A stretch of DNA of 64,000 nucleotides from Bergeyella sp. (GTDB taxonomy: Bacteria > Bacteroidota > Bacteroidia > Flavobacteriales > Weeksellaceae), in contig SZYB01000003.1 in the NCBI GenBank assembly GCA_030263285.1, positions 124,001 to 188,000 of the forward strand, read 5' to 3'. Below, one piece after another: positions 10,055 through 12,842 of the stretch. Under the pieces are notes generated by a model, which worked only from the letters and a program-made list of their open reading frames with translations, was not told the DNA's origin and ran no database searches. Made by a program: the position numbers and the translations under genes. The stretch's first letter is position 1; the number at the start of each line of letters is the position of its first letter.

Positions 10055-10357
10055 ATGCTTAGAGAACTGGAAGATAGCTTTTCGTTGCTGGAAAGGAGGA
10101 TTTTGAGGAAAAAGAAGGAATTTAGGGAGTTGGGAGAAAGTTACAGAGAAGTTTTGCAGGAGTTAGAGCAGGTAAGAGAGAAGTATAGAGAGGAGAGGAA
10201 GAGAAGTCAGGAGTTGGCAGAAGAAAACAGAAGGATAAAGCTCTTGTCGACGTTAGCGGGCAATCTGGAGCATAGTCGTTTGATGAAAAATCATATCAAT
10301 CGGTTGATAAAGGAGGTGGATTTCTGCATTGATCATTTGCGAAACAAAGGTTTGTGA
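10055..10357 (+). CDS. Small coiled-coil protein encoded next to zapA
   Basis: A 100-residue protein made almost wholly of charged heptad-like sequence (residues about 5-70, rich in Glu, Arg, Lys and Leu), predicted to form one long coiled coil, with a short C-terminal tail HIDHLRNKGL-like in NRLIKEVDFCIDHL. It overlaps the zapA start by 4 bp, indicating translational coupling. In other bacteria the coiled-coil partner ZapB bridges ZapA and the division apparatus. A similar role is possible here but is only inferred from position and structure. It has its own upstream promoter element. Confidence 0.75.
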   Translation: MLRELEDSFSLLERRILRKKKEFRELGESYREVLQELEQVREKYREERKRSQELAEENRRIKLLSTLAGNLEHSRLMKNHINRLIKEVDFCIDHLRNKGL

Positions 10358-10641
10358 TGATGGACGTGAGAAGGATCACCATCAACATAGCGGGAAGGAC
10401 CTATCCTCTCAATGTGCCTGCAGCGGAGGAAGAAATCCTCCGAAGGGTAGGGAAGCAGATAGAGAGTATGGTAAGGGATTTTGAAGCGAGTTTTGACGTA
10501 AAAGATAAGCAAGATGCTCTGGCCATGTGTGCACTAAAGTTGGGTGCCGGTGCCGAGATAGCAAGGCTGAATTACGATAAGAATATAAAATCTTCTGTAG
10601 AGCGGGTAAGGGGAATTCTTTCGGTTTCAGAAGATGAATAA
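10354..10641 (+). CDS. zapA: Cell division protein ZapA
   Basis: A 95-residue ZapA-family protein that promotes FtsZ filament bundling at the division ring. The N-terminal part (ITINIAGRTYPLNVPAAEEEILRR) is the typical ZapA beta-hairpin with the family's Y-P-L pattern. The middle includes the common segment DKQDALAMCALKL, and a helix follows for dimerisation. It overlaps the preceding coiled-coil gene by 4 bp. Its stop codon TAA is part of a TAAATTTG promoter element that appears to drive the structured RNA downstream. Confidence 0.88.
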   Translation: MMMDVRRITINIAGRTYPLNVPAAEEEILRRVGKQIESMVRDFEASFDVKDKQDALAMCALKLGAGAEIARLNYDKNIKSSVERVRGILSVSEDE

Positions 10642-10646
10642 ATTTG
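10639..10646 (+). promoter_or_regulatory. -7 promoter element for the candidate 6S RNA
   Basis: TAAATTTG overlaps the zapA stop codon. The predicted transcription start (about 10651-10653) falls just ahead of the first base of the closing helix of the RNA at 10657. This is the placement expected for an independently transcribed RNA. Confidence 0.6.
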
Positions 10647-10652
10647 GTTTCG

Positions 10653-10826
10653 ACTGCCTACAATGGTTCTAACACATTTAAGGTAAACTCAACGTTAAAC
10701 AAATACCGAACGAAAGTTCGCTTGATGGCGTGCCGATATTGTTTCGGATTACAAAAAGTGAAAATCAGTTCAAATCTTGTAAAGATGGGGTTTACTCTCA
10801 ATTTTTGAGCCATTGTAGGTTTTTTT
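10653..10826 (+). ncRNA. ssrS: Candidate 6S RNA (6S-Flavo-like) between zapA and rny
   Basis: A non-coding stretch bounded by a perfect 10-bp helix: CCTACAATGG at 10657-10666 pairs with CCATTGTAGG at 10810-10819, followed at once by a run of seven T. Inside it, GTAAACTC (from about 10682) pairs with GGGTTTAC (near 10788-10796). A terminal hairpin CGAAC-GAAA-GTTCG and a smaller CCGA/TCGG hairpin sit in the middle. This gives the long, interrupted rod typical of 6S RNA, the RNA mimic of open promoter DNA that binds RNA polymerase. The 6S gene lies next to zapA in many proteobacteria, and a 6S-Flavo RNA family is known in Flavobacteria. It has its own -7 element. No covariance search was run. 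Confidence 0.68.
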
Positions 10827-10874
10827 GTGGATATAAAATAAATTAACACTACTTTTCATTACAATAACGTACAT

Positions 10875-12446
10875 ATGACAACTACTGTAATTATTATGTG
10901 CCTTTTGGCTCTTATGGCGGGAGTTGCACTTGGGGTATTCTTTTCGAGGAGTGCTTTAAACTCCAAAGCCCGGTTTATCTTAGAAGATGCGAAAAAAAAC
11001 GCAGAAAATATGATAGAGAAGGCAAAAGTGCAAGCAGAATCTGCTAAAAAAGAAAAACAACTTCAAGCTAAGGAAAGGTTTTTAGAGTTAAAATCTCAGC
11101 ATGATCAGGATATTCAGTCTCGAGAGAAAAAAATACTTGAGATGGAGAAAAGAATAAAAGAAAAAGAACAAAAACTAAATGAAGAGCTTAGTAAATCTGG
11201 TAAGCTGGAGAAAGATCTGGACAAACAAATTGCGGACTATTCAAAGAAAAATGAAATTATAGAAAAGAAAAGAGTTGAGCTGGATGCTATCATAACACAG
11301 AAAGTAGATATACTAGAAAAAATATCCAATTACTCGGCGGCGGAGGCGAGATTAGAACTTATAGAATCCTTAAAAGTGGAGGCGAAAAGCAAGGCTCAGG
11401 CACATATACAGAGTATTATGGAGGAGGCGCAGATGAATGCAAAGAACGAGGCCAGGAAGATTGTCATCCAGACCATACAAAGAATAGGCACAGAGCAGGC
11501 GATAGAAAATTCAGTTTCTGTGTTCAATATAGAATCTGATGAAGTAAAGGGGAGAATCATTGGCAGAGAAGGGAGAAATATAAGGGCAATAGAGGCAGCT
11601 ACCGGAGTGGAAATAATAGTAGATGATACCCCTGAGGCTATTTTACTTTCGTGTTTCGATCCTATAAGGAGAGAAATTGCGCGTTTGGCACTGCATAAGC
11701 TGGTTACAGACGGAAGAATACACCCTGCGAGAATAGAGGAGGTGGTAGATAAAACACGCAAACAGATAGAGGACGAAATTATAGAGGTAGGAAAAAGAAC
11801 TGTGATAGACTTAGGTATACACGGGTTACATCCCGAACTTGTAAAAATAGTGGGGAGGATGAAATTCCGGTCTTCTTACGGTCAAAATCTTTTGCAGCAC
11901 TCCAGGGAGGTGGCTAATATTTCTGCTACTATGGCAGCAGAGTTGGGGCTCAATGTGAAACTGGCAAAAAGGGCAGGTCTTTTGCACGATGTAGGAAAAG
12001 TGCCTGAGCAGGAGTCAGAACTTCCTCATGCACTTTTGGGAATGCAGTGGGCAGAAAAATATGGTGAAAACAAAGAGGTAGTGAACGCAATAGGTGCACA
12101 CCATGACGAGATTGAGATGACTTCTTTACTGTCTCCCATTGTACAGGTTGCAGATGCAATATCGGGAGCGAGACCTGGAGCGAGAAGACAGGTTTTAGAA
12201 TCCTACATACAAAGGCTAAAAGACCTAGAATCGGCAGCGTTGAGTTTTGACGGAGTTTCCAGTGCTTATGCCATACAGGCGGGAAGAGAACTTCGGGTGA
12301 TGGTAGAGAGTGGGAAGGTAAACGATAACGTGGCAGCACAGTTATCTTATGATATTTCAGAAAAAATACAGAATGAACTCACCTATCCTGGGCAAGTAAA
12401 AGTGACGGTAATAAGGGAAACCAGAGCTATAAATATAGCGAGATAG
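10875..12446 (+). CDS. rny: Ribonuclease Y
   Basis: A membrane-anchored endoribonuclease that starts mRNA decay. In order: an N-terminal transmembrane helix (about residues 4-24), a long charged coiled coil (30-180), a KH RNA-binding domain with [15 protein letters not shown], and an HD metal-dependent hydrolase domain whose core is LLHDVGK with upstream His in LLQHSREV and downstream AIGAHHDE. The length (523 residues) is standard. It follows the candidate 6S RNA and its terminator by about 50 bp; TACTTTTC near 10849 could be its own weak -7 element. Confidence 0.96.
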
Positions 12447-12479
12447 AAAGAAGGTAGGGTTGGTTTATTGAAAAAATTA

Positions 12480-12842
12480 ATGAAAAAGGTTTTTTATTTA
12501 AAAAGCTGTAGCACTAATAAGAGGATCATGTCTGTTTTGGATCTCTCTTCTTGGGAATTAAGAGAAATCAAATCTACTCCCGTCACAATAAAAGAGTTGG
12601 AAGAGATGCATGAGAGAAGTGGTTCATTTCGGGCACTTTTTAGTAGAAAATCTGGTCAGATCAAAATAAGAGGAATAGATTCTTCCTCCTTAGAAGAGAA
12701 AGACTATAGAGCCTTAATACTGGACCATTATAGCTTTCTGAAGCGTCCTGTTTTTCTCACGAAATCCGATATTTTTATAGGATCCGATAAAGACAATCTG
12801 GCAAGGCTTTACGAATACTTTGATAGGAGTCAAAAGGGTTAG
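12480..12842 (+). CDS. ArsC/Spx-family thioredoxin-fold protein
   Basis: A protein of about 120 residues resembling the arsenate reductase (ArsC)/Spx family of glutaredoxin-like proteins. The N-terminal strand and active-site loop read VFYLKSCSTNKRIM, keeping the family's first Cys but with Asn in place of the second Cys of CxxC. Later segments VTIKELEEM and FLKRPVFLTKSDIFIG match the usual family layout. The ATG at 12480 fits the family start better than the TTG at 12468. Whether it reduces arsenate is uncertain, as no ars genes are nearby. Confidence 0.72.
   Translation: MKKVFYLKSCSTNKRIMSVLDLSSWELREIKSTPVTIKELEEMHERSGSFRALFSRKSGQIKIRGIDSSSLEEKDYRALILDHYSFLKRPVFLTKSDIFIGSDKDNLARLYEYFDRSQKG

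Follow-up and report, generated by a model that had tools for sequence, protein, structure and literature searches.

In the 64-kb window (i.e., the whole stretch of DNA that was analysed), a structured element is located between zapA and rny, the gene of RNase Y, and all of them are on the same strand (Table 1). The start of zapA is overlapped by the gene of a 100-aa coiled-coil protein, which occupies the position of ZapB, and this order is conserved through the phylum; directly downstream of rny, at 12468-12842, there is an Spx/ArsC-like small protein (TIGR01617, 28.6 bits, below the cut-off of 75). The element itself is closed by a perfect 10-bp helix, in which CCTACAATGG (10657-10666) is paired with its complement CCATTGTAGG (10810-10819), enclosing 143 nt, and the run TTTTTTT follows directly on the 3′ side of this helix. 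Upstream of it, TAAATTTG overlaps the zapA stop codon TAA (10639-10641). The helix, the enclosed bases (about 143), the T run and the element over the zapA stop, on which the first-pass annotation had based its proposal of a 6S RNA gene, are thus all confirmed.

Table 1. Features of the zapA-rny interval and its neighbouring genes, with positions in the window.
Feature	Position	Strand	Basis
Coiled-coil protein of 100 aa in the position of ZapB	10055..10357	+	conserved upstream of zapA
zapA	10354..10641	+	PF05164 53.5 bits, E 3e-14
TAAATTTG, exact TAnnTTTG, possible promoter; RNA start would be near 10651	10639..10646	+	not conserved
Predicted 6S RNA core, from the closing helix through the T run	10657..10827	+	full-length R3 model match
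Closing stem P1, 5′ strand	10657..10669	+	pairs with 10807-10819
Inner stem P2, 5′ strand, GGTAAACTC	10682..10690	+	fold, alignment
Central bubble, 5′ strand, AACGTTAAACAAATACC	10691..10707	+	predicted pRNA start region
Apical stem with internal loops, like an upstream promoter duplex	10708..10771	+	helices 3-6 covary
Central bubble, 3′ strand, AAATCTTGTAAAGATG	10772..10787	+	AAATCTTG resembles a -7 element, putative mimic
Inner stem P2, 3′ strand, GGGTTTACT	10788..10796	+	fold
Closing stem P1, 3′ strand	10807..10819	+	fold, alignment
T7 run, putative 3′ end	10820..10826	+	T run conserved in alignment
rny (RNase Y)	10875..12446	+	TIGR03319 629 bits; PF12072 E 9e-30

6S RNA is a folded RNA with the appearance of an open promoter, on which RNA polymerase is held back as growth declines. 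The interval is predicted to fold with -51.5 kcal/mol (z -4.5), which none of 200 shuffles equalled, and the fold has the shape of the 6S class, that is, a long closing stem, a large central bubble and an interrupted apical stem. When the window was scanned for perfect 10-bp helices with a span of 100-200 nt and a following T6, one was found on the + strand (the element) and none on the - strand; among 200 dinucleotide-shuffled 64-kb windows, each scanned on one strand, 22 contained at least one. Since such a helix is not rare in shuffled sequence, it is weak evidence by itself, and the decision falls to the comparison across genomes.

For this comparison, 41 RNAs from Flavobacteriales relatives were aligned, and the RNAalifold consensus contained 39 pairs, 28 of them with compensatory changes. 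Four doubtful pairs were removed, and in the 35 pairs that were counted 97.6% of the cells are paired and both sides have changed in 25, with none of 500 shuffles as high. The covariation was 0.446, compared with 0.041-0.097 for slid partners; the pairs were counted on the same alignment that had yielded the consensus, which favours the structure, but the contrast is too large to rest on the shared alignment alone. In the closing stem P1, 9 of the 12 pairs counted have changed on both sides and 99.6% of the cells are paired, the corresponding proportion in the inner stem P2 is 98.4%, and the apical helices 3-6 also covary. That is to say, the structure is kept by compensatory changes, as is expected of the 6S class.

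At the gathering thresholds, Rfam gives no match in the 64-kb window. In a permissive search of 361 nt, the best two of ten matches were RF01693 Bacteroidales-1 (38.2 bits, E 5e-5, gathering 60), which is described in Rfam as a suggested 6S-Bacteroidales, and RF01685 6S-Flavo (38.0 bits, E 1.9e-4, gathering 85), both at the element, on the right strand and over the full model length. The search against the 6S models, by which the first-pass annotation wished its proposal to be judged, therefore succeeds permissively, while no model reaches its gathering score. Over the whole genome RF01685 has a single match, at the element, and RF00013 (gathering 46.4 bits) has none up to E 10. Among 59 genomes, namely the organism's own and those of relatives in its family and order, RF01685 at E<=1e-3 matches 43, exactly once in each, and never above the cut-off.

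Much stronger matches are obtained with a full-length model, R3, whose 17 training RNAs belong to Flavobacteriales but not to the family of the window organism; 10 of the 17 come from genomes with RF01685 hits above the cut-off. R3 finds 10657..10827 in the window with 79.5 bits and E 8.2e-16, and in the whole genome the element (E 2.2e-14) is its only credible match, the next best having E 5.05. Two further models were made, R1 from 41 order-level (Flavobacteriales) RNAs and R2 from 19 RNAs in the zapA-rny slot of other classes. Over 392 genomes of the phylum, R1 matched 61, once in each, in searches whose stricter filters lose weak matches; three of these genomes are Bacteroidales, where the match is at the same place as that of RF01693. 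Applied to individual loci, R1 recovers all five Bacteroidales-1 places (L192-L196, E 7.7e-10 to 1.2e-6), R3 also finds the Bacteroidales-1 loci, and R2, although trained on other classes only, finds four RNAs of family f22 that were known from R1 (E 7e-10 to 1.7e-5). The ssrS of E. coli is not found by R1, R2 or R3, and the window element is missed by R2; a direct bridge from R2 to ssrS was rejected after R2 gave nothing up to E 10 on E. coli and L001. The chain to canonical 6S RNA therefore runs through intermediates: RF01685 and RF01693 reach the element at E of about 1e-4 and R3 at 8e-16, and the zapA-rny slot is where the matches of R1, R2 and RF00013 coincide.

Compared with the known families, the element shares with RF01685 the core ACTCAAC ... 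GGRGTTT, the order of the stems and the position, and R3 with its ten RNAs from genomes with over-cut-off RF01685 hits links the two; the differences are the score, far under the gathering value, and the extent of the model, which spans 108 positions without the closing stem. RF01693 is tied to the element by its own match and by the loci that R1 and R3 find, but that match is below the cut-off, and in the five Bacteroidales genomes examined the RNA is not between zapA and rny. With the canonical RF00013 and ssrS of E. coli, the element has the overall shape and the zapA-ssrS order in common, whereas this genome has no RF00013 match up to E 10, the 3′ bubble strand of the element is AAATCTTG and not CCCACYGTG, and the downstream gene is rny instead of fau.

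Taken together, the sub-threshold Rfam matches, the family-level held-out model, the covariation and the bridging to Bacteroidales-1 and RF00013 bear out the proposed identity. The element has a conserved structure with compensatory changes, is homologous to 6S-Flavo and Bacteroidales-1, is present in a single copy and has a fixed place between zapA and rny, and it is very probably the 6S RNA of this genome. With high confidence it is the only 6S RNA gene here, its predicted product being an RNA of ~170-177 nt that would act as a polymerase decoy and be released via a pRNA. As far as excerpts of the papers go, a 6S RNA with pRNAs has been found in Bacteroides by dRNA-seq (PMC7366714), a 6S RNA has been detected in Flavobacterium psychrophilum (PMC9723704), and 6S-Flavo is treated as 6S RNA (PMC2864571); the RNAs of these papers are not equated here with the sequences matched.

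As for the mechanism, P1 and P2 would correspond to a downstream duplex, followed by the bubble, and the apical stem to the upstream promoter duplex, so that together they would mimic an open promoter. The RNA, which is presumably expressed, would accumulate, bind the housekeeping RNA polymerase holoenzyme and keep it occupied; release would come about when the polymerase copies the 6S RNA as a template for a short pRNA, which is predicted to start in the 5′ strand of the bubble. The 3′ bubble strand is mostly [AT]AA[AT]CnTG across Bacteroidia and mostly CCCACYGTG in other classes, and, judged from sequence, the Bacteroidia form may resemble the promoter element TAnnTTTG, in the very position in which this element would be expected if the RNA mimics a promoter. 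The score of this -7 mimic is 3.7 of 6 in 24 Bacteroidia RNAs and 2.4 of 6 in 22 other-class RNAs, a weak contrast, the 8-mers being placed by eye.

The position of the RNA gene is highly constant in Flavobacteriales. In L001-L043, zapA is directly upstream of the RNA in 43/43 loci, rny is downstream in 42 (in the remaining one the contig ends), and the coiled-coil gene is upstream of zapA in 40. A pattern search starting from the RNA gave at least 118 named contigs, the best 80 of which belong to Chryseobacterium and Kaistella (both members of the window organism's family), to Weeksellaceae, and to assemblies named only Flavobacteriia, Flavobacteriales or Flavobacteriaceae. Among the matches listed, 112 of the 118 named loci have both zapA and rny in place; in the other six one gene is missing from the stretch, and in four of these six (L088, L093, L104 and L123) the RNA lies at most 270 nt from an end. 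Eight loci were dropped, namely L040, L066 and L139, where the helix search found nothing, and five others without zapA by tblastn. In L162-L191 and L202-L211 all three genes are present in 40/40, some genomes being repeated.

Beyond the order, the slot was followed through rny, which was matched in 118 of 148 genomes at E 1e-60 (the 30 others were left out). About 81 genomes of other classes have rny, of which 40 were taken (about one per genus); one locus (L242) is cut by a contig end, leaving 39 loci of families f28-f49, and L239, a chance second match, was left out. Many of these zapA-rny gaps fold as a 6S RNA with GGGAG, CAGGCC, GTGGAAG, CCCACC and AAGAACC/GGTTCTT. On the 39 whole genomes, the best RF00013 match has E<=0.082 in ten, all ten in the zapA-rny slot, and every match outside the slot has E above 2; it exceeds the cut-off in one genome (G094, 47.1 bits) and is not convincing in 29. 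Of the 20 slots that had been kept out of R2, this model matched 19 (E<=5.2e-7) and missed L230, so that 38/39 slots of other classes are filled with a 6S-like RNA. In 37 of these 38, zapA is directly upstream; the exception is L229 (family f33), where the 6S RNA is directly upstream of rny and the gene before it is not zapA but that of a different protein. Nine zapA ORFs were checked, eight of them from other classes, and all pass the Pfam cut-off.

Within Bacteroidia the RNA is not always in the slot. On 65 loci, R1 has nine matches with E<1, each of them located in a slot and on the right strand, and in family f17 the slot is filled in 4/4 loci (E 9.6e-7, 8.9e-4, 0.0058 and 0.044). The slot has no 6S match with either R1 or R2 in 21 loci of f18-f23, f25 and f26, and zapA is still upstream of rny on the same strand in 19 of them. 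Ten of these genomes carry the 6S RNA at another place, which is close to rplT or dnaJ in some Bacteroidales and close to serC or other genes in f22; one of the ten is from f19 (gene names read from translations). Because the same slot holds RF00013-type 6S RNA in the other classes, parsimony favours a slot that is probably ancestral to the phylum Bacteroidota. The zapA-6S link, which the first-pass annotation had expected to reach from proteobacteria to this phylum, is seen in the window as a 6S gene directly downstream of zapA on the same strand; it extends to other classes of the phylum, and is older than was thought.

The RNA may owe its transcription to the zapA operon, to TAAATTTG or to both. 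The TAnnTTTG promoter element spans -12 to -5 according to the accessible part of one study (PMC9723704), and TAAATTTG is an exact copy whose G is 10 nt before the helix. A 6S gene with its own sigmaA promoter at this site and its own terminator, independent of zapA, comes close to an even chance; relocated 6S genes point the same way, with the exact element 5-20 nt upstream in 7/10 (0.6 expected). On the opposite side, it occurs in 2/41 Flavobacteriales slot loci against 1.4 expected in shuffles and in 0/112 named Weeksellaceae loci, among the matches listed, and the idea that the slot has a TAnnTTTG promoter conserved across loci was rejected. Of the separate promoter that had been proposed, the exact site therefore stands and its use is not established, since it is not enriched among relatives. 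The proposed terminator fares similarly: the alignment shows conservation of the T run that follows the closing helix, and the scan of the + strand found no compact intrinsic terminator hairpin, so the 3′ end is placed only putatively at the T run. The relocated genes with the exact element are L192-L196, L198 and L200.

Alternatively, the 6S RNA could arise mainly by read-through from zapA with help of Nus factors and boxA, followed by processing, which is a real possibility but below even. The boxA consensus is given as GYTCTTTAANA in the portion of the source available (PMC5725501). Its core, the motif GYTCTTT, is found in 14/31 leaders of other classes and f17, in seven families (0.3 expected in shuffles), in 8/41 Flavobacteriales slot leaders (0.2 expected) and in 0/20 empty zapA-rny slots, the leaders being related so that the counts are not independent events; it is also found in 1/10 relocated 6S genes. 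These counts cover 41/43 Flavobacteriales, 112/118 named (among the matches listed) and 31/41 other-class/f17 leaders; the last were counted only from 7 nt upwards, for which 10/41 are too short, and L229, having no zapA, was left out. Against read-through in this organism, GYTCTTT is absent from the 15-nt leader of the window and from all 112 named Weeksellaceae leaders, among the matches listed. Since the window leader has no boxA, TAAATTTG may really be used as a promoter in this genome.

The loci with GYTCTTT between the zapA stop and the 6S RNA are L240, L241, L243, L254, L255, L259-L264, L213, L214 and L273, as well as L002, L003, L006, L007, L010, L033, L039 and L043. In the 16S leaders, exact GTTCTT occurs only in f17 (L293 and L305, 2/30 leaders, both of one genome); most Flavobacteriales have variants such as GTTCATTG or GATCATTG, and this genome has AGTTCATTGACATT. 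The likeness of the 6S leaders to those of rRNA is therefore only partial. In L010, L011, L012, L014, L025, L029 and other Chryseobacterium-type loci, an inverted repeat GGAAAAG...CTTTTCC surrounds the zapA stop just before the 6S RNA, and it is possibly a processing hairpin or a degenerate boxA.

RNase Y cleaves RNA, and the co-directional pair of zapA and rny surrounds the RNA in every Flavobacteriales locus with both genes; the structure could accordingly belong to the zapA-rny mRNA, as its 5′ leader or as an element for 3′ processing, e.g., for autoregulation of RNase Y, instead of being a free 6S RNA. This is very improbable, given the homologous RNAs at unrelated loci away from rny in Bacteroidales and f22, the exact TAnnTTTG just upstream of most relocated copies, and the RNA of L229, which precedes rny without zapA. 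A chance inverted repeat, to which the shuffled windows lend some plausibility, is refuted by conservation and covariation in 41 sequences and deserves practically no credence.

In E. coli K-12 the order is zapA, 41 nt, ssrS and fau, and for beta- and gammaproteobacteria the accessible part of PMC7641849 gives the order as zapB-zapA-ssrS. The window copy of the coiled-coil protein has no ZapB hit in the Pfam search; with PF06005 (cut-off 31.5), the counterpart in L227 passes at 32.8, and that in L228 is weak at 21.1, below the cut-off. The zapA-6S order in Bacteroidota, to which the survey was confined, and in Proteobacteria is likely due to common ancestry. A broader reading, speculative and on balance unlikely as a whole, would be that a zapB-zapA-6S transcription unit already existed before Bacteroidota and Pseudomonadota diverged; that the 6S precursor of Bacteroidota was transcribed from this unit behind an rRNA-type boxA antitermination element; that lineages moving the 6S gene swapped boxA for a private TAnnTTTG promoter; and that the 3′ bubble strand in class Bacteroidia changed from CCCACYGTG to [AT]AA[AT]CnTG, tracking the TAnnTTTG promoter specificity of that class, so that there was coevolution of the mimic RNA with the sigma factor. 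Neither the zapA-6S-rny synteny nor the boxA-like leader was found in the open-access literature; subscription papers were outside this scope, and an earlier description in Wehner 2014 (6S dissemination) is possible. In the accessible text or titles of that literature, work joining 6S RNA and zapA concerns proteobacteria, and the only co-mention found of boxA and 6S RNA concerns Shigella invE.

The RNA is thus of a known kind, and what is new, as far as searchable papers go, is the synteny across the phylum and the boxA-like leader. First of all, Rfam cut-offs miss the 6S RNA in this family, none of 59 genomes passing that of 6S-Flavo although 43 have a match, and gene order and intermediate sequences make it possible to connect RF01685, RF01693 and RF00013. 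Moreover, 6S RNA is found beside zapA in Bacteroidota as well as in Proteobacteria, and one may ask why an RNA that silences polymerase stays near a gene of the division ring. Finally, to judge from the boxA-like leaders, the synthesis of 6S RNA may be linked to the machinery that transcribes ribosomal RNA, which can be tested.
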